Of a stretch of 48,108 bases of DNA, positions 2,723-19,359 are shown piece after piece. The translations under genes and the position numbers were made by a program. The notes under the pieces were generated by a model. That model saw only the letters and a list, made by a program, of their open reading frames with translations. It was not told the DNA's origin and did no database searches. Numbering within the stretch: position 1 is the first letter of the stretch; each line of letters opens with the position of its first letter. Origin of the DNA: a virus. The stretch spans positions 1 to 48,108 of the IMG/VR virus record IMGVR_UViG_3300006954_000001; one strand, given 5' to 3'.

Positions 2723-3837
2723 TGAACGAACTCGACACCCTTCTCTCTGGCTTCGCTCCTGCCGCGAGGCCGCAGCGTCGGCAGGGCACGCCTGCCCCCG
2801 ATGACGGGATGCTTCCCAGCCGGATGCTGGGCGCTGCCGGTACGGCGATCACCGCCCAGCGGGCGAAGACCCTTGGCCCCTATGACGCCATCATGGGCCT
2901 TCTGGGAGGCATGGACCCCCTGCTGCGGGCGGTGTCTCAGTCGGCCATCGAAGATGCGCTCTCGCTTCCTCGGGGCTCGATCCCTTCGCAGGAGGAAGAC
3001 ACCCTCCAGAAGCTCCAGTTCCAGCAGCGGACGTTTGCGGCGCACAAGTCCCTGCTGGTGGACAAGGTGATGGACGTGCAGGCCACCATCGCGGACCTCC
3101 CCGATGAGGTGAAGGCCAAGATCGAGATGGACGAGGACACGCTGGAGTCAGATCCCAAGCGGTGGATCGCCTACGCCAAGGCCATCGGCAGCGACCTCAC
3201 TCCCGGTGACCTCATGCGCGCCGGGATGCTGAAGACCCCGGACGAGATCGCGGCCAAGCAGACCAAGGAGAAGTCGGACGCGGCGCAGGAAGACGTGGCT
3301 TCCACCTCCCGGCTGCGGCAGAAGCTCGAAGACCTCAAGGCCCTCAACGTGGGCACGAGCAAGACGCCGGCTCTCCTTGCCGAAGCGGACTTCCCCGGTC
3401 AGGCGAAGGCGGCCATCGAGAAGCAGGGTGAGGCCATGGACACGGACCTCCTGCCTGCCAAGTGGGAGTTCTGGACCGGCCCTGATGCGAACACCCTCCA
3501 AGGGTTGGAGCGGGCCTATCTGAACGAGGGTCGCGCTCTCGCCTCCCCGATGCTCAAGCCCCTCGCTGCCCGTGGCTTCCTTGAGGCTGCCGGGGAGCAG
3601 ATCGGGCGCGTGCTGAACACGGCCCAGAAGGGGCGCATCAAGACCAAGGAGGGCGACCAGACGCGCGTGATGGTGGGTGATGAGCCCGCCGTCCTGCACG
3701 CCGCGCACCTTGCGCTGCTCTTGGCTCAGGACGGCGGCATGGACATCTCGGACGTGCTGACCAAGCTGGGCGTGGACGCCAACGCCATCGACCTCGACAG
3801 CTACAAGGCCGCCGCTGCCAAGGTGAGCGGTGAGTAG
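2722..3837 (+). CDS. Internal virion protein candidate, mostly helical
   Basis: A 371-residue protein starting at GTG 2722, whose first base is the last base of the upstream stop codon. It is soluble-looking, charged and largely helical, with no transmembrane segment, no cysteine motif and no catalytic motif recognised. It overlaps the 1635-residue gene by 8 bases. Its place in the four-gene block suggests a core or ejection protein; a chaperone or tail accessory role is equally possible. Confidence 0.7.
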   Translation: MNELDTLLSGFAPAARPQRRQGTPAPDDGMLPSRMLGAAGTAITAQRAKTLGPYDAIMGLLGGMDPLLRAVSQSAIEDALSLPRGSIPSQEEDTLQKLQFQQRTFAAHKSLLVDKVMDVQATIADLPDEVKAKIEMDEDTLESDPKRWIAYAKAIGSDLTPGDLMRAGMLKTPDEIAAKQTKEKSDAAQEDVASTSRLRQKLEDLKALNVGTSKTPALLAEADFPGQAKAAIEKQGEAMDTDLLPAKWEFWTGPDANTLQGLERAYLNEGRALASPMLKPLAARGFLEAAGEQIGRVLNTAQKGRIKTKEGDQTRVMVGDEPAVLHAAHLALLLAQDGGMDISDVLTKLGVDANAIDLDSYKAAAAKVSGE

Positions 3838-6800
3838 TGTCGAGAACCTTGGGGAGATCGTTGGGAAGACACTGACCGACGACCTCGCCGGGAGGCTGGC
3901 GGGCCGCGCCCTCAAGGTCGGGGCTCTGGGCGCAGAGCGCCTGCTGCCTTCGCAGGACGGCTCTCTCGGGGTCATCGACCTCGACAACCCGCTGCTCTCG
4001 GGCGACGGCTACCAGACCAAGCTGCTCGCGGCCGGGACGTACACCAAGCAGCCCGAACTGTTCTACGGCCCTTTCATGCAGTTGGGCACCTATCTCAAGG
4101 GCAAGGGAATCATCCAATCCGATGCGCTCGCGCTGGGGATCGACATCCTTGGACCTGATCCGATCAATCTGGCGACTCTTGGCACGGGTGGCCTCATCGA
4201 GAAGGCCACGGGCGGGCTGATCTCCGGGCTTACCCGGAGCGGCAAGGTGGCCAAGCTGGCCTCCGCCATCCGCGACACCAAGGGGGCCATGACGGGCGCG
4301 GAGTTCGTGACCCATGTGGCCGACGCGCTGGAGGGCGCGGCCAAGGTTGCCGGCGCATCTCCCGAGTGGGCGGCTGCGGCCAAGGCCGGGAACAGCAAGG
4401 CCGCCATCGACATCCTGAAGACAGCCCTCGACACGGGGAAGTTGTCCGCCGAGGACACGGCGCTACTGACCAAGTTGCGCGAGTCCGGGAAGGCCATCGG
4501 AGACGTGCTGAAGCACGCTGACGAGATCGGGACCAAGGGTGTCCTGTCAGACTCGGCCTACCTCGGGGAGACCATCGGCCAGCGCATCTCGCGCGGGCAG
4601 GTGAATCCCTTCCTCAAGATCGCCAAGCCCGACATCGCCAAGCCTTGGAACATCCCGCTCCAGATGATGGGCTTCGAGGTGAAGGGCCAGACGTACTGGA
4701 TGCCGGGGTCCACCAACATCGCTGGCGGGCTGGAGAAGGCGGCCAAGTCTCCGGGCCTCTCGGCCTACAACGCCACGGTGGGGCTCTCGATCAACCGGGT
4801 GCTGACGGGGGTGCCGCAGGACCAGCTTTTCAGGGACTTCGAGGCGGCCGGGATCAAGACCGAAGACCTTGCCGCCCGCTTCCGTGAGCGCCGCCGGCTC
4901 TCCCCCAACACCGAGGTGGAGGGGACCCCCGAGTTCGAGGCTTGGAAGGAGCGCGTGCTGGACCGCTTTACGGGGCTCCAGCGGGCCTACGATCAGGCTG
5001 CGGTCCGCAGGGCCAATGAGACCATCGAAGCCTCCGTGGCGGCCTTGGAGGGCCTGCGGCCGGGCTTGGAGCAGGCCATCGCTGGGCAGGCCATCAACAA
5101 GGACTACGCGGCCCAGATGGGCTCCATGCTGCGTAGGCTGCACGAGGACATGGGTGTCCGCGCCCTGCGCCGGGACATGGGGGAGCCGGGCTTCGGCATC
5201 CCTGCCCGGCAGTCCTTCGCGACCCTCATCGCCCGGCAGACGGTGGTCAACGTCCGCGACATCATCGAGCAGGGCTACCAAGGCCCGCTCATGCGCGAGG
5301 CCGTGGCCGAACTCTTTGGCCCTGCCGTGGCCCACCCGCAACTCTGGGAGGAGGTGGGTGGCCGGCTGGTGCTGAGGGGCACGCCGGAGGAGGTGGCCAA
5401 GGAGTCGCCCTTCCTTGCCTCCGTGCTTCAGCGCGCCCCGGGCAGGGAGGCCACGGCTGCCCTCGAAGCCCGCCTCCGCACGGAGGGGTTGGATGCCGGC
5501 CTCTCGCACGTCATCAAGCAGACCCAGATCACGCTGGATGCGACCGGCAAGAACCTGCTGCACGAGGGCGTGGTGCAGGGCCTCCTGCACGACTACTTCC
5601 CGCGCGTCTTCCGCCCCAACGAGAAGTTCTTCGCGGAGTTCGGGGGCAGCACGGCCGACTCGGCCGCTGCGATGGAGCGCCTGTTCGCCTCCGACGACGG
5701 GGACATCCTGCTGGCCAACCTCGGCAGCAAGACGGTGAAGGAGCAGTTGGACAAGGCCGGGCAGGGCAAGCTGTCCATGGCCGAGGCGCGGGCATGGACT
5801 GAGAGCGTGGCCCAGCGGATGGAGGCTGCCGGCTACGGGGTCTACAAGAAGGACGGGCCGGAACTGCTGGGTCACTACATGGAGGCGGCGAGCAGCGCGC
5901 TGCTCCTCAACCGCGTCCTGCATGACCTCCCGAACTTGGGTGGGGCGCTGACCTTCGCGGACGTGGCCGAGAGGATCGGGAGCAAGGAGGCCGCGAAGAT
6001 CCCGCAGGAAGCCTTCCGCAAGGCCAGCCGGGTGATGGCGGTCAACAGCGAAGACGACATCCCCAAGGAACTGCGCGGGCACTTCACCCGCATTGATCCG
6101 CGCTACCGCACGGTGCCGGCGAGCAGGGATACCGAGAAACTGCTGGGCGGCGCAGAAGCCAGCGAGATCGCCGCCACCGAGCGTGGGCGCGGCATCGAGC
6201 GCGAGGTAATGCGCTCCGAGATGACTGCCGAGGCCACGGCCGCTGCTCGCTCCAAGGCCGCTGCCGAGGAGATGGTGGCCATCAAGCGCGGCAGCAAGGC
6301 CATTGATGAAGCCTCCCGCGAACTCGCTGCTGCCGAGAGGCAGGGGGCGGTGGCCACCCGCAAGGCCATGCAAGGCGGCCTGCGTTCCATCAGGGACGCA
6401 GAGCGGGCCATCGGCGGCATTGGCCGCGACACCACCAAGGCGCTCAAGGGCGTGCTGGATGACCTGAATCCGCAGCTTGAGCGCATCGACGGGCTGCTCA
6501 AGGATGCCCAGCGCAGCCACGTCCTCAAGGAAGGCGCGGAGCGCGCTGCCGAACGCGGCACCGCTGCTGGCGAGCGGGCCGGCGAGAACGTCGCGCCTCT
6601 CCGCGACTACGTTCGCAAGGCCATGGGCAGCGCGCGGCGCATCGAGACCAAGGCCGACGTGATGCGGAAGCGCGCGGAAGCCATGATGGCCTCGGCCGAG
6701 AAGAAGATCGAAGTCCACGAGGCCCGCATCGCCCGCTCAGGCAAGCCGCTGGCCAAGGCCGAGGCGGAAGCCATTGCCGCCACCAAGAAGGCCAAGGACA

Positions 6801-8737
6801 GCCTCGCCCTCGTCTCCAAGAAGTGGGGCGACATCGCTGATGCTGCCCGCAAGGCGCAGGGCAAGTCGGCCGACATCCTTGGCCGCGCCGAGGTGCGCGG
6901 CAGCATGGCCGCCCAGAAGGGCGCGCTGGTGGATGCCGCCAAGAAGGCCCGCACTCAGGTCTCCAAGGAACTCTGGGTCTTCACCCCCGACTACGCCCAT
7001 CTCCAGCAGGCGCTGCACCTCTACGCCAAGGGCGAGGGCGTGCCGGGCTGGCTGCGGAAGTACCGGGACTGGAACTACCGCTTCAAGTCCGTGCTGCTCT
7101 CACTCGACATCTACCACCTCAACACGCTTTCCATCTCGCAGTTGATGACCGACCCGACCTCCGCCCTCAAAGTGCTGGCCACGGCCAAGGGGATGAAGCG
7201 CGCAGCCATCGGAGCCGGAGTAGGCGCGGGAGTGGGCATCGCCTCGGACCGCGACGCTCGCGGAGTCGCCGGCCTGTCCCTCGCCGGGGCCATCTACGGG
7301 GCCGCGATCACGGCTGCTCTGGAGCGGGCCGGGAACGCCTCCCGCGTGGCCCTCAATCCCGGCAACGTGGACACGCTCTACCGCATGGGGCGTGGAGGCT
7401 GGATCGGGAAGCCCGACGACAGGGCCATCGGTGTTGCCGCCGCCGCCCTCAAGGCCATCTCGGACAGGCTGGCCTCCGACGTAGCGCAGGGTGCGGTCAA
7501 GCCCATGCTGCACCCCATCGACAAGGTGCGGCACATGGCCGAGGCGTGGGAGCAGACCTTGTGGGAGGTCTCGCACAACGGCAGCAAGCACTTCTACTTC
7601 GATGTCATGTGGCGCAGGGAACTCCCCAAGCTGGAGAAGAAGCCCGGCTACCAGATCGAAGCCCTCAAGGCCGAGTACGACTTGGCCAAGCAGGAAGGGC
7701 GCCTGCTTCCCGGCGACACCTCGGCCTCCAAGTTCATCGAGCGGCGCAGGCAGGGTATGGAGGACGCGCTGGCGCGCGAGCTTGTGCAGTCCGCCAACAA
7801 CACCTTCGGTGGCCAGAACTGGGCCAACCTGCTGAACCACCCCGAGTATCAGCGGCAGGCGAGGGACTTCCTCCTGTCCCCCGACTGGACCGCCAGCCGC
7901 ACGGCCATGACGGCCACCTACCTGATGAACATGGGGCCGATGAAGCGGGCCGCTTTGGGCGCAGGCATCGGGGCCGCCATCGACTTCGTGCAGTCCGGCG
8001 GAGACCCGGAGGACTTCCATCCCGCCCGCGCCGCCTCCCTCGGGGCCGCTGCCTTCCTTGCCCTCGGCAAGTGGGCTGACGGCATCCAGAAGCGAATGAT
8101 GGTGCCGGGAGACGTGATGCGGAAGGAGGCCGCCCGCATGTCTGCCTCCGCCCTCCGCGGCGGGTACACGTTCGCCAACGCCCTCAACCTCGCCTTCACG
8201 GGGCACTTCCTCTGGGAGAACGACGAGGGCCGGAAGACCCAGATCGGGCTGGGGGATGGGAGCTACGTCGCTCTCGGCAAGCCGTGGGTCGAGGCCTTCG
8301 AGTTCGCGGGTGTCTACCACCCCGAGCGGTACCCGGCTCCCGTGGCCTCGCGCCTCTTCTCCAAGGCTGCCCCGATTCCGCACGCCGTTCTGCGGGTGCT
8401 GACCAACACCAACGACTGGGGTGGCCCGCTCATCACGGCCGACGATGGCCCGCTCGACATCGCCTACAAGGACATGAGCTTCGCCATCGACGCCGTGGCC
8501 CCCATTGGCCTCCAAGGCATCAGCAGGGTGGGGGCTGCCGTAGGCACCGGGCAGTACGATCCACGGCAGCTACAGAGCGGTCTGCTGCGTACCACGGGCT
8601 TCCAGACATCCGTGCCTTCCATCCACAGGGGAGGAGGCCTGCTGGGAGGGCCGATGGGGGAGCCGGGGAACCTGTCCGATCTCCTCTCCGTGCCGTCCTT
8701 GGGTGACCCCACGAACCTCATGGCGGGGCGGCTGTGA
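3830..8737 (+). CDS. Giant internal virion protein (DNA-ejection apparatus candidate)
   Basis: At 1635 residues this is the largest gene in the window, with a GTG start at 3830. Layout seen: residues 1-150 contain Gly/Leu-rich segments; about 700-1060 is a long Ala/Glu/Lys/Arg helical zone, likely coiled coil; about 1120-1170 and 1370-1400 are Gly/Ala-rich hydrophobic stretches (such as AAIGAGVGAGVGIAS) that could span membrane. The region around FGGQNWANLLNHP followed by SPDWTASR resembles domains found in large polyvalent phage and mobile-element proteins. Known podoviral counterparts (T7 gp16 class) are of similar size and extend the tail through the cell envelope. No lytic transglycosylase motif was recognised. 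Confidence 0.8.
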   Translation: MSSVENLGEIVGKTLTDDLAGRLAGRALKVGALGAERLLPSQDGSLGVIDLDNPLLSGDGYQTKLLAAGTYTKQPELFYGPFMQLGTYLKGKGIIQSDALALGIDILGPDPINLATLGTGGLIEKATGGLISGLTRSGKVAKLASAIRDTKGAMTGAEFVTHVADALEGAAKVAGASPEWAAAAKAGNSKAAIDILKTALDTGKLSAEDTALLTKLRESGKAIGDVLKHADEIGTKGVLSDSAYLGETIGQRISRGQVNPFLKIAKPDIAKPWNIPLQMMGFEVKGQTYWMPGSTNIAGGLEKAAKSPGLSAYNATVGLSINRVLTGVPQDQLFRDFEAAGIKTEDLAARFRERRRLSPNTEVEGTPEFEAWKERVLDRFTGLQRAYDQAAVRRANETIEASVAALEGLRPGLEQAIAGQAINKDYAAQMGSMLRRLHEDMGVRALRRDMGEPGFGIPARQSFATLIARQTVVNVRDIIEQGYQGPLMREAVAELFGPAVAHPQLWEEVGGRLVLRGTPEEVAKESPFLASVLQRAPGREATAALEARLRTEGLDAGLSHVIKQTQITLDATGKNLLHEGVVQGLLHDYFPRVFRPNEKFFAEFGGSTADSAAAMERLFASDDGDILLANLGSKTVKEQLDKAGQGKLSMAEARAWTESVAQRMEAAGYGVYKKDGPELLGHYMEAASSALLLNRVLHDLPNLGGALTFADVAERIGSKEAAKIPQEAFRKASRVMAVNSEDDIPKELRGHFTRIDPRYRTVPASRDTEKLLGGAEASEIAATERGRGIEREVMRSEMTAEATAAARSKAAAEEMVAIKRGSKAIDEASRELAAAERQGAVATRKAMQGGLRSIRDAERAIGGIGRDTTKALKGVLDDLNPQLERIDGLLKDAQRSHVLKEGAERAAERGTAAGERAGENVAPLRDYVRKAMGSARRIETKADVMRKRAEAMMASAEKKIEVHEARIARSGKPLAKAEAEAIAATKKAKDSLALVSKKWGDIADAARKAQGKSADILGRAEVRGSMAAQKGALVDAAKKARTQVSKELWVFTPDYAHLQQALHLYAKGEGVPGWLRKYRDWNYRFKSVLLSLDIYHLNTLSISQLMTDPTSALKVLATAKGMKRAAIGAGVGAGVGIASDRDARGVAGLSLAGAIYGAAITAALERAGNASRVALNPGNVDTLYRMGRGGWIGKPDDRAIGVAAAALKAISDRLASDVAQGAVKPMLHPIDKVRHMAEAWEQTLWEVSHNGSKHFYFDVMWRRELPKLEKKPGYQIEALKAEYDLAKQEGRLLPGDTSASKFIERRRQGMEDALARELVQSANNTFGGQNWANLLNHPEYQRQARDFLLSPDWTASRTAMTATYLMNMGPMKRAALGAGIGAAIDFVQSGGDPEDFHPARAASLGAAAFLALGKWADGIQKRMMVPGDVMRKEAARMSASALRGGYTFANALNLAFTGHFLWENDEGRKTQIGLGDGSYVALGKPWVEAFEFAGVYHPERYPAPVASRLFSKAAPIPHAVLRVLTNTNDWGGPLITADDGPLDIAYKDMSFAIDAVAPIGLQGISRVGAAVGTGQYDPRQLQSGLLRTTGFQTSVPSIHRGGGLLGGPMGEPGNLSDLLSVPSLGDPTNLMAGRL

Positions 8738-14156: not shown

Positions 14157-14515
14157 GCTCCCTCTCCCTTCTGGCTCGCGGCGGCGCGGCACGCCTTGCT
14201 GATGACCGCCAGTTCGGCTTCGACGTTGGCGCCAGCCTCGTCGCTCATCGCCCCGCTGCGAGCGATCTGCGCGAGGATGTCGAGAGACTCGAAGGCATCA
14301 GACAGCAGCGCCCTGATCGCCGGAGCGGAGGGCGTGGGCGTGCGGAGAAGTTGCACGATGCCCTCGGCCTCTGCCTTGGTGAGCCCTTCGATGCGGGCCA
14401 GATGATGCAGGCCGGACACGGCCCACAGCCGCCCGGCCTTGTTGTGCTCCAGATGCGTGACGCTCCCGAAGGGCTGGTAGACGTATGGGCCGTCAACAAC
14501 AGCGTCGCCGCTCAT
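14153..14515 (-). CDS. Hypothetical helical protein, 120 residues
   Basis: ATG start at 14515 in an ATGA overlap. The first 40 residues are beta-like with aromatics; the rest is helical, including GLTKAEAEGIVQLLRTP. The second half resembles dimerising helical hairpins. No metal or catalytic motif recognised. Confidence 0.6.
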   Translation of the reverse strand: MSGDAVVDGPYVYQPFGSVTHLEHNKAGRLWAVSGLHHLARIEGLTKAEAEGIVQLLRTPTPSAPAIRALLSDAFESLDILAQIARSGAMSDEAGANVEAELAVISKACRAAASQKGEGA

Positions 14516-14706
14516 CGTCGCGCCGCCTTCGCGTAATATAGCCGCGCTCGATACAGACCCGTTGTCGTGAGATCCTGTCGGCTTTCGCGAACCTGCCGGG
14601 CCTGCTCAATGAGCCAGTCCGCAACTTCCGCGTTCTCGCGCTGGCTCCAGTTGCCGGGCTTGTCCAGTGTCAGTAGGGCGCGGCACTTCTCAGGCTTCTG
14701 CTTCAT
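14512..14706 (-). CDS. Hypothetical protein, 64 residues
   Basis: ATG 14706 lies 2 bases after the stop of the Acb2/Tad1-like gene. The small basic helical protein (RENAEVADWLIEQARQVRE) has no recognised family. Its coupling to the preceding gene suggests co-translation. Confidence 0.55.
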   Translation of the reverse strand: MKQKPEKCRALLTLDKPGNWSQRENAEVADWLIEQARQVRESRQDLTTTGLYRARLYYAKAARR

Positions 14707-14708
14707 CG

Positions 14709-14906
14709 TCAGCCGCCCTTCTGGAGTTGAGCGCGAACGAAACAGTCCTTCGCCTCCAGCAGCTTCCGCATTCCTGCGGACTTCTCGGGGCCGTCCGTCA
14801 GCATGGACTCCATCGCCTGCGCCAGATCAGCGCACGGCTTGCTCACCTCCTGCAAGTGCGGCGGCAGGTGTTCGTAGGCAAAGAACTTCTGCGTCGTCGT
14901 GGGCAC
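14709..14906 (-). CDS. Acb2/Tad1-hairpin-like small protein (candidate cyclic-nucleotide sponge)
   Basis: 65 residues from GTG 14906, chosen because AAGGAG sits 5 bases upstream; GTG 14912 is an alternative start. The pattern KFFAYEHLPPHLQEVSKP, then LAQAM, then GPEKSAGMRKLLEAKDCFV is a two-helix hairpin found in many phages. It recalls the small DUF7681/Acb2-Tad1 hairpin proteins, some of which bind cyclic oligonucleotide or ADP-ribose signals to block CBASS and Thoeris defence. The family link is from memory of the motif and not verified; ligand binding is inference. It sits in an array of small early genes, where counter-defence proteins are common. Confidence 0.5.
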   Translation of the reverse strand: MPTTTQKFFAYEHLPPHLQEVSKPCADLAQAMESMLTDGPEKSAGMRKLLEAKDCFVRAQLQKGG

Positions 14907-14930
14907 GGTCACTCCTTGGTAAATGCGGCT

Positions 14931-15335
14931 CTAGCCGCGGGTTGATTCGTTGCGGTGTCGAAGCTGCCAGCGCAGCGCGTCCGGATCGCTAGCGCCGGCT
15001 TTGACCGCGATGCAGAGCGCGGCCCAAGCGGCCTGCTCCCATTCCTGCGCGTCCACCCCTTTCGGCATTTCGGCGACTGGCGGCACAAGCTCATGCGGCC
15101 CGCAGTCCTGCAAGAACTCGCGGGCGGCGATATAGCGCAGCACCACGCGACAGAGCGTCAGCGCCTCCTTCGCCCCCGCCGCCGGCGCGTGGCGGGCGAT
15201 CACCTCGCCCATGTTCTCGTAGAGCGCGGGCCAGTCCACCGGATCGCCTCCGGTCATCAGCCAGCGGCCAGCGATCTCCTTCGCAGCAGCAAGCATCCAC
15301 GCGCACGGCTCGGGCGGGGCGGGGGTGGCGGTCAC
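14931..15335 (-). CDS. Hypothetical protein, 134 residues
   Basis: GTG start at 15335 in a GTGA overlap. Mostly helical, with several Trp and Cys residues but no paired CxxC motif. The C-terminal part (WEQAAWAALCIAVKAGAS) is amphipathic. No family recognised. Confidence 0.6.
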   Translation of the reverse strand: MTATPAPPEPCAWMLAAAKEIAGRWLMTGGDPVDWPALYENMGEVIARHAPAAGAKEALTLCRVVLRYIAAREFLQDCGPHELVPPVAEMPKGVDAQEWEQAAWAALCIAVKAGASDPDALRWQLRHRNESTRG

Positions 15336-17322: not shown

Positions 17323-17606
17323 GGCTGCGCCTCGGCCCCGCCGCCCCGGGCAAGCGAGCGAGAGCCTTCGTGTGCGGCCCTGCTCGTTGACGGCGGCACC
17401 GCGCATCCAGCCATGCACTCCTCCGTGTATTGGTGCAGCGTCTTGCGCTTGCACTTCGGGCACTCCGAAGCGAACTCGCCGGCCTGCTCCTCTGGCGTGC
17501 AGGTGTGCGCCTTGACGCGCTCGGCGTAGTGGTCCGCCTGAGAGCGCGACGGCTCGCCCATCGCGTCCATGTACGCCCGGCTCCAGCACTTCTCGCAGGC
17601 GCTCAC
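17319..17606 (-). CDS. Small Cys-motif protein with SQADHY segment
   Basis: 95 residues from GTG 17606 (GTGA overlap). It begins with ACEKCWSRAYMD, followed by SRSQADHYAERVKAHTCTPE, a motif seen in several phage hypothetical proteins. A second CPKC and a Cys pair near EECMAGC follow. Likely zinc-binding; function unknown. Confidence 0.6.
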   Translation of the reverse strand: MSACEKCWSRAYMDAMGEPSRSQADHYAERVKAHTCTPEEQAGEFASECPKCKRKTLHQYTEECMAGCAVPPSTSRAAHEGSRSLARGGGAEAQP

Positions 17607-18949
17607 GCCGCACCTCCGCCGCCGCGTGCGGCCAGATAGGCGTCGAGGGCGTCCACGACGGTGTGCGTCTGCTTCCAGTGGTCGGAGCCGCCGGCCATCC
17701 ACAGGCGGTCCAGCGCGAGGCACAGCGCCTCCCGCGCCTTGCCCGCCTCGCCCCCGTCCGCGGCAGGAGGGGCGGACGAGAGGCCCAGCACGACGTAGCC
17801 GGGCGCCACGCCGAAGCGGCCACCACTCATGATGTAGCCGATCTGCGTGTGGTACGAGCGCCCGTGGTAGCCGCTCGCCTCCGACCACTCGCGCAGCATG
17901 AGCCTGTCGCCCACGCGGAAGTCGCGGTCGGCCTTGCGGACCTCGAAGCGTTTGCTGCCGTCGCACAGGGCCTCGAAGAACTCAGGCCAGACCTTGAGGT
18001 CGTGGCAGACCGGATCTCGCTCCGCCCCGCTCGGGCGCGGAGGCGGGGCGGCCACGGCGCCAAGGGGCACGGCCGCCTCGTACAGTCGCGTGGCCGAACC
18101 GAGAAGGCGCTGCGACGTGGCAAGCTCCGCTGTGAGCCGCTGGACCTCGGCAATCTCCCCGCGCAGTGCCGTGTTCATCTCGCCGCGCTCGCGCTCCAGA
18201 TCGTTCTTGTCGGCCCGCAGCCGTTCGCACTCCGCCTCGGCGCGAGCGGCGCGGGACTCCGCGGCGGCAACGAGAGCCTTCTGCTCGCTGACGTGATTGC
18301 GGGACGTGATGAGTTGTCCCCAGATCACGTCGCGCGCAGACAGCGCCTCGTCCCGCTCGCGATTCGCCCGCTCCGCCGCAGCGGCCTCGGCGGCGCGGAT
18401 GTTAGTCACGATGTACGCCTTGTCGTCCGATGCGAGTTGGGCGGCGTGGCGATAACGCAGGTGGATGAGGATGTTCTCGGCCCGCTGCTCAGGCGTCGTC
18501 GCGTCCACGGGCTCCGCCGTCATCGCCTCGGCGCGCGGCGGGGAAGGGGCCGCAGGATCGGCGGCCGGGAGCGTCCGCTTATAGGGCTTCGTCGGGTCGT
18601 CACCCTCGCCGCATTTCACGGTGGGCTGATCCGGCTTGTCGCTACCCGATCCTGCGGCCTTCTTCGTCTCGTTCGGCAGCGCGGCGAGGGCGGCAAGCGC
18701 AGCGGAGAGGCGCGCGGCTCTCTCTTGCCAATCTTGGTCGCCGCCCATGCGGAGGTAGAAGCCGCAGGCCCTCGCCGCCTCCGCCACCTTCTCCAGCAGC
18801 GCCTGAGAGGTGCGGCGGGCGAGAAGCTCGCGGGCCATGCGAATCTCGTCCGGACTGCTACTGAATGCGTAGGCGGCGATGTTGCTCAGCCTTTCATCGC
18901 TCAATCCGCCAGAGCCGGCGGCGGGAGAGGGAGAGGATGGGGTGGTCAC
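17603..18949 (-). CDS. Coiled-coil protein with C-terminal DUF3850 (ASCH-like) domain
   Basis: 448 residues from GTG 18949 (GTGA overlap); the frame continues upstream but only across the neighbouring gene. The N-terminus is Ser/Ala/Pro-rich. Residues about 165-270 form a coiled coil (ERANRERDEALSARD and RAEAECERLRADKNDLER). Residues about 315-395 are a DUF3850 domain: HDLKVWPEFFEALCDGSKRF, then EVRKADRDFRVGDRL, then YHGRSYHTQIGYI. ASCH/DUF3850 folds bind RNA or modified nucleosides. About 50 extra helical residues follow. DUF3850 proteins are usually free-standing and under 100 residues, so this long form is unusual. Confidence 0.75.
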   Translation of the reverse strand: MTTPSSPSPAAGSGGLSDERLSNIAAYAFSSSPDEIRMARELLARRTSQALLEKVAEAARACGFYLRMGGDQDWQERAARLSAALAALAALPNETKKAAGSGSDKPDQPTVKCGEGDDPTKPYKRTLPAADPAAPSPPRAEAMTAEPVDATTPEQRAENILIHLRYRHAAQLASDDKAYIVTNIRAAEAAAAERANRERDEALSARDVIWGQLITSRNHVSEQKALVAAAESRAARAEAECERLRADKNDLERERGEMNTALRGEIAEVQRLTAELATSQRLLGSATRLYEAAVPLGAVAAPPPRPSGAERDPVCHDLKVWPEFFEALCDGSKRFEVRKADRDFRVGDRLMLREWSEASGYHGRSYHTQIGYIMSGGRFGVAPGYVVLGLSSAPPAADGGEAGKAREALCLALDRLWMAGGSDHWKQTHTVVDALDAYLAARGGGGAA

Positions 18950-19359
18950 TGAGTTGCTCCGATGAAGTCGGGATGCTTGGTGCGAACGTGGGCAGCCATC
19001 CGCGTTGCGGCGAAGCTGCGGTTGCAGCACGGGCACAGGCCGTGAGCGGCGCGCTTCTTGGCTCGCGTGGCCTGCCCCTTGAAGGCCGACGCCTTCCGCT
19101 GCGCCTCTTCCTTGCGGCGCTGCTCGCGCTCGGCCCATTCGCGGTTGGACTGGCTGCACTGTTGCGCGTGGGCGAGAGCGCGCTTGGTCTTTTCCAGTTC
19201 CGTCTCGCCGTAATAGACGTTGGCGTGCTTCATCGGGCAGAAGAACTCCGCATGGTCCTCGCGCCTGTGCCGCTGGAACTCGACCGTGATGCCGAAGGCC
19301 ATGCTGCAAGTTGCACAGTGGATCACGGAGACCGTGCCGGTGAACAGTTGCGTAGTCAC
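18946..19359 (-). CDS. Two-zinc-finger protein with basic linker
   Basis: 137 residues from GTG 19359. An N-terminal CATCSMAF with a following HRREDH and FFCP, and a C-terminal CPCCNRSFAATRMAAHVRTKH, look like two classical-type fingers. Between them is a long Lys/Arg/Glu/Gln helix (REWAEREQRRKEEAQRKASA). DNA or RNA binding is likely from the layout. Coupled by GTGA on both sides. Confidence 0.65.
   Translation of the reverse strand: MTTQLFTGTVSVIHCATCSMAFGITVEFQRHRREDHAEFFCPMKHANVYYGETELEKTKRALAHAQQCSQSNREWAEREQRRKEEAQRKASAFKGQATRAKKRAAHGLCPCCNRSFAATRMAAHVRTKHPDFIGATQ

Follow-up and report, generated by a model that had tools for sequence, protein, structure and literature searches.

What kind of protein is encoded by a small gene on the minus strand of IMGVR_UViG_3300006954_000001, an IMG/VR virus record that is 48,108 bases long (the whole of this stretch is termed the window here)? 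An earlier note had placed a 65-residue product at 14709-14906, without stating its strand, and had likened it to the Acb2/Tad1 hairpin type of anti-defence sponge. The product is indeed there: the minus-strand open reading frame (ORF) from 14709 to 14906 consists of 65 amino acids (aa) and a TGA stop, and encodes the quoted peptide exactly. It is fairly likely that this gene specifies a small protein that belongs, as a divergent member, to the Acb2/Tad1 superfamily of helical hairpins and is predicted to be an oligomeric sponge for nucleotide signals. As regards the family to which it belongs, which we name HLP for its F-x-Y-x-H-L-P motif, the fold and the superfamily placement are well supported, and the protein is, by analogy with those members of this fold family that bind up bacterial alarm nucleotides, probably an anti-defence sponge.

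HLP is a very common phage protein family that has been nameless until now. The 65-aa protein matches PHROG 1761 (1.1e-29) and PHROG 5120 (1.5e-25), both of unknown function, while direct scans gave no Pfam or NCBIfam match. Relatives were found in 366 of 50,697 phage records, including phages of Erwinia, Vibrio, Acinetobacter, Gordonia, Mycobacterium and many others. A first scan of viral contigs added 170 contig stretches and another found at least 585. A different bait, modelled by hand on the Myxococcus phage Mx4 protein in consensus-like form and meant for search use only, found at least 559, which may overlap the set of at least 585. The two PHROG matches, the 366 records and the 170 stretches together rule out a spurious or chance ORF. 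The signature of 162 dereplicated relatives reads F-x-(Y/F)-x-H-L-P-x-x-L-Q-x-V-S-x-P...L-A...L-P-(D/R)-(G/N)-P-E-x-(S/T)-x-x-(L/M)-R-K-L-L-E-(A/S)-K-D-x-x-V-R-A, and three subtypes are visible, namely E-K-S, which includes the window protein, E-R-T and the actinophage E-L. Residue 11 is aromatic or histidine (Y/F/W/H) in 96% of these relatives by weighted count, and tyrosine in 77%. The second helix is near-invariant at E41, R47, K48, L49, E51, K53, D54, V57 and R58.

The two-helix pattern noticed earlier was borne out by structure prediction. As a single chain, and with an alignment of 91 sequences, AlphaFold2 folds the 65-aa protein into a two-helix hairpin with a short helix ahead of it at the N-terminus (pLDDT 92.1). 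When this model was compared through Foldseek with the predicted viral structures of BFVD, the top six included close HLP relatives, a protein of Ochrobactrum phage OH (L082) standing third. Ranks 7 and 8 were proteins titled 'Acb2/Tad1 hairpin domain-containing' (prob 0.97 and 0.96), and 14 more of these lay within the top 50. As a positive control, an Acb2-type relative was also structure-predicted and run through the same search. It found largely the same named proteins, among them A0A8S5Q4N3, W8NWL0, A0A8S5NKU4, A0A8F2IW27 and A0A8S5MXB5, with prob 0.94 and lower. Thus, HLP appears to be about as near to the centre of the group as Acb2 itself.

At the level of sequence, the link to the Acb2_Tad1_hairpin model PF24729, whose gathering cut-off is 27 bits and which gives the T4 Vs.4 control 71.4 bits, runs through a bridge. 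PF24729 matches HLP relatives weakly, in 14 of 46 (best 0.0024) and in 4 of 56 (0.013), always below the cut-off. Across the genomes of 50 HLP-carrying contigs it gave four sub-cut-off matches, two of which, those of G004 and G005, fall on the HLP gene itself; a PF24729 gene above the cut-off stood alongside HLP in none of the 50, a count that has no background rate to be compared with. The bridge is a PF24729 subfamily, FTYH, with the signature F-T-Y-H-x-P-K-G-D-Q-P-E-R-Y, a member of which reaches 53.8 bits over the full model length. With hhalign, HLP matched FTYH at a probability of 95.8% when 10 FTYH sequences were used and 96.1% with 72 (E 3.3e-9, score 46), the E-values ranging from 3e-9 to 8e-9 across runs. 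Column-shuffled FTYH profiles scored 13.9 at most in 30 trials, and the reversed profile 11.6. The aligned signature goes beyond the helices, as it also takes in a helix cap, P-x-x-x-E-x-(S/T), and the F-x-Y start, which is not helical; both are shared with FTYH. Similarly, phrog_1454, which is the PHROG of the FTYH family (5e-21 for its member L349), is matched by HLP members at up to 3.9e-6. The FTYH profile in turn matches the solved structure of 'Acb2 homolog 43' (9ptq, six chains, 2e-5), and Tad1 chains weakly (0.45). When HLP was aligned directly with the 9ptq fragment, the probability was 60% (E 8e-5), with a score of 24.2, where 40 shuffles reached 12.9 at most.

HLP lies outside PF24729 by the gathering cut-off and inside it by profile-level homology to accepted members; it also has the short N-terminal helix ahead of the hairpin and, judged by alignment, an aromatic residue at the nucleotide-stacking position. 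What stood of the earlier assignment is the superfamily, through the weak PF24729 matches in 14 of 46 relatives, the 96% hhalign match, the Foldseek neighbours and a domain fusion described below; a place within Acb2 or Tad1 proper did not stand. In a separate search of PDB sequences, with the protein and with the family profile, only Gp22 of 8jaj came up (E 0.001). This 529-residue protein was set aside as a likely chance hit, the match covering 47 positions, most of them in helix 1 and the F-x-Y-x-H-x-P start.

Further evidence comes from the fusion just mentioned. In one relative (L054), a single open frame encodes HLP followed by a RyR domain (PF02026, 9.6e-12). In another contig (L349, 1349-2116), an FTYH-type PF24729 hairpin is followed, again in a single open frame, by an RyR domain that belongs to the same PHROGs as that of L054. 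Phage proteins with RyR domains are known to degrade or sequester the Thoeris signals 2'/3'cADPR (PMC13232231). The hairpin-RyR protein of L349 is a candidate two-domain anti-signal protein, and the HLP-RyR fusion suggests a functional association, short of proof. A scan of the 50 HLP-carrying contigs for RyR gave no match, nor did any control match in it; the window genome likewise had no RyR match. In two contigs (L344:2320-3339 and L361:2653-3327), RyR was also seen fused to Phage_gp49_66 (PF13876); this domain, which is common in phages and uncharacterised, is possibly another counter-signalling module. Two more HLP proteins, in L046 and L060, carry a C-terminal unnamed domain (TWDFEAFVQYGRDHGGNIVGGMPWSFSFHG...), the L060 copy matching phrog_31185 only.

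The hairpin can also be compared with Acb2 at its ligand site. In T4 Acb2, the Y8A change disrupts the binding of cyclic dinucleotides, and the mutant no longer activates Panoptes (PMC12657218). Residue 7 of Vs.4 and residue 69 of L349 both fall at position 1 of the PF24729 model; hence Y8 of T4 Acb2 corresponds to the tyrosine of F-T-Y-H. In the hhalign alignment this tyrosine stands opposite Y13 of a 67-aa reading of the window gene, that is, residue 11 of the 65-aa protein. Residue 11 may therefore be the counterpart of the nucleotide-stacking tyrosine of Acb2, as far as the alignments tell.

Both Acb2 and Tad1 are known to bind cyclic di- and trinucleotides. By the mechanism we propose, the HLP protein would assemble with itself as these two proteins do, and pockets would form at the interfaces, in which the conserved aromatic residue 11 would stack on a base of the ligand. 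The nucleotide, either a cyclic di- or trinucleotide of CBASS or a cyclic-ADP-ribose of Thoeris, would be sequestered without cleavage, and the effector of the defence would stay inactive. The RyR fusion points, by analogy, to cyclic-ADP-ribose (cyclic-ADPR), although sequence alone cannot fix the exact ligand. A bolder proposal, tentative and rather doubtful, is that the charged face of helix 2 (R-K-x-x-E-x-K-D-x-x-V-R) recognises a signal outside the range of Acb2, such as cyclic-ADP-ribose, so that the RyR fusion would be a two-domain trap, where the hairpin captures the signal and RyR captures or destroys it.

The gene lies in a tight minus-strand run of small ORFs to which no function is assigned. 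Its GTG start at 14906 is preceded by a Shine-Dalgarno sequence. An alternative in-frame GTG at 14912 would give the 67-aa reading, but it overlaps this AAGGAG; the start at 14906 is favoured because relatives begin at the equivalent residue (MPSTTIKYF...). The features are as follows.

14709 to 14906, minus strand: HLP-family hairpin gene, 65 aa, GTG start and TGA stop; predicted nucleotide-signal sponge.
14912 to 14917, minus strand: AAGGAG, the Shine-Dalgarno sequence, 5 bases upstream of the GTG start, read from the sequence.
14862 to 14885, minus strand: F-F-A-Y-E-H-L-P stretch, residues 8-15, with Tyr11 opposite the Acb2 ligand tyrosine (Y8 of T4 Acb2) by alignment.
14715 to 14789, minus strand: second helix of the hairpin, residues 40-64, from AlphaFold2, with the near-invariant positions given above.
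14512 to 14706, minus strand: next gene of the run, 64 aa, its ATG (14706) 2 bp after the stop of the hairpin gene; no family match.
14931 to 15335, minus strand: ORF of 134 aa that precedes the hairpin gene in the run; no family match.

The SU10-like portal, major capsid and adaptor genes, along with a DnaB-like helicase, identify the window as an SU10-like phage. Elsewhere in it, a long minus-strand frame (17603-19309) contains a stretch like an RNA-binding protein (phrog_986, 1e-30) and overlaps a plus-strand ORF of 429 aa, so that either of the two may be the true gene. A plus-strand ORF of 1635 aa (3830-8737), without a Pfam or PHROG match, is probably a large virion protein.

How firmly can the sponge be upheld? 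The main reason for caution is how little the second helix varies between very different phages, which is unusual for a sponge engaged in an arms race. The residues E41, R47, K48, E51, K53, D54, V57 and R58 could form inter-subunit salt bridges and phosphate contacts, or they could serve a different conserved partner. The latter would suit a protein of the same superfamily and fold that was recruited elsewhere, for instance as a small oligomer that serves as an adaptor or a regulator for RNA or for proteins of the phage or its host, by means of the unvarying charged face of helix 2 (R-K-x-x-E-x-K-D-x-x-x-R). Such a role would also accommodate the fusions of HLP to crAss001_48-related domains and, in Ochrobactrum phage OH (L082:765-1133), to a zinc-finger module (anti-TRAP/DnaJ-like) placed ahead of the hairpin, neither of which has a known link to signalling, as well as the HLP genes that sit among head genes in two Gordonia phages. 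The HLP-RyR fusion, moreover, was seen only once. Nevertheless, an RyR fusion is common to HLP and a PF24729 hairpin, an aromatic residue is conserved at the ligand position of Acb2, and the scattered genomic positions suggest that the gene is accessory, not structural; recruitment to another role is, on balance, somewhat unlikely.

The remaining points against the sponge concern the link to Acb2/Tad1 as such. The profile search that the earlier note had proposed as its check, against DUF7681/PF24729, found no match in the 65-aa protein or elsewhere in the genome. Between HLP and Acb2 proper, hhalign and HMMER in several settings detected no profile similarity (hhalign probability below 1%), and FTYH is nearly too distant from Acb2 proper for such detection. 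The Foldseek E-values for the Acb2/Tad1 set in BFVD are weak, at 0.33 and above, and the search against the PDB gave no meaningful match, only random helical proteins, without retrieving the Acb2/Tad1 crystal structures. Two-helix folds being common, and Occludin_ELL and TetR_C_11 scoring weakly with some HLP members, one may suppose that the likeness is one of convergence and that the profile links reflect generic amphipathic helices. This is improbable, since the hhalign score of 46 stands against a control maximum of 13.9, the shared signature includes non-helical positions, and phrog_1454 is matched. It is more improbable still that HLP is an anti-defence family already named under another label, such as Acb4, Tad2 or one of the recent structure-guided signal binders. 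Several sponge families were indeed published in 2024-2026, and our searches, in a library that lacks some of the papers, found no usable literature on the HLP family, on 'Sequestin'/'Lockin' or on Acb2 ligand residues; but HLP has no name in PHROG, Pfam or NCBIfam, its BFVD relatives are nameless or 'uncharacterized' save one titled 'Anti-TRAP domain-containing', and Acb4, set beside HLP by description only, is described as a tetrameric sponge (PMC11722364).

On the best reading, HLP is thus a new, divergent branch within the known Acb2/Tad1 fold family. If the sponge function is true, a family found in 366 phage records, and in at least 585 contig stretches of one scan, gains a concrete, testable role in evading nucleotide-signal immunity. 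Acb2 has been described as relatively rare (PMC11722364); the HLP branch would put the superfamily among the commoner counter-defences. Some phages that are well studied in the laboratory carry representatives, such as the Mycobacterium phages grown on M. smegmatis mc2 155.

Among known systems, the closest to HLP is the FTYH subfamily of PF24729 (phrog_1454; for example Lactococcus phage 1706 and Mycobacterium phage Phabba), with its 96% profile-profile match. The two share the F-x-Y start, the P-x-x-x-E-(K/R)-(S/T) before helix 2, the length and the overall pattern, and each is found fused ahead of an RyR domain. They differ in that H-L-P-x-x-L-Q of HLP is replaced by H-x-P-K-G-D-Q-P-E-R-Y in FTYH, and R-K-L-L-E-A-K-D-x-x-V-R-A by (T/R)-K-(L/V)-(R/E)-E-(A/V)-V-x-x-A-N-A-A-I-A; unlike FTYH, HLP falls below the Pfam cut-off. 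With Acb2 homolog 43 (9ptq, six chains), LPEGREKSVFKTKLEEA aligns with LTDGPEKSAGMRKLLEA at about twice the shuffle maximum, a 43-residue fragment being compared. Acb2 itself (Pseudomonas phage p26; T4 Vs.4) shares with HLP the predicted hairpin fold, overlapping BFVD neighbours and, by alignment through PF24729, an aromatic residue at the ligand-stacking position. HLP lacks the Acb2 motifs G-Y-R-D-L-S-x-E-E-I and G-K-T-D-L-Q-x-G and has no detectable direct profile match, and was therefore rejected as Acb2 in the strict sense. Tad1 resembles HLP in its hairpin half, the FTYH profile touching its second helix weakly (E 0.45), but it also has an N-terminal antiparallel beta-sheet domain (PMC12043709). 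The 65-aa protein, all helical in its model, is too short for this domain and is thus not Tad1 proper. Acb4 of SPO1 is described as a tetrameric cGAMP sponge (PMC11722364). Lastly, the phage RyR-domain proteins known as RyDEP (PF02026), whose anti-Thoeris function has been demonstrated (PMC13232231), differ from HLP in fold and provide the fusion partner of its relative in L054.
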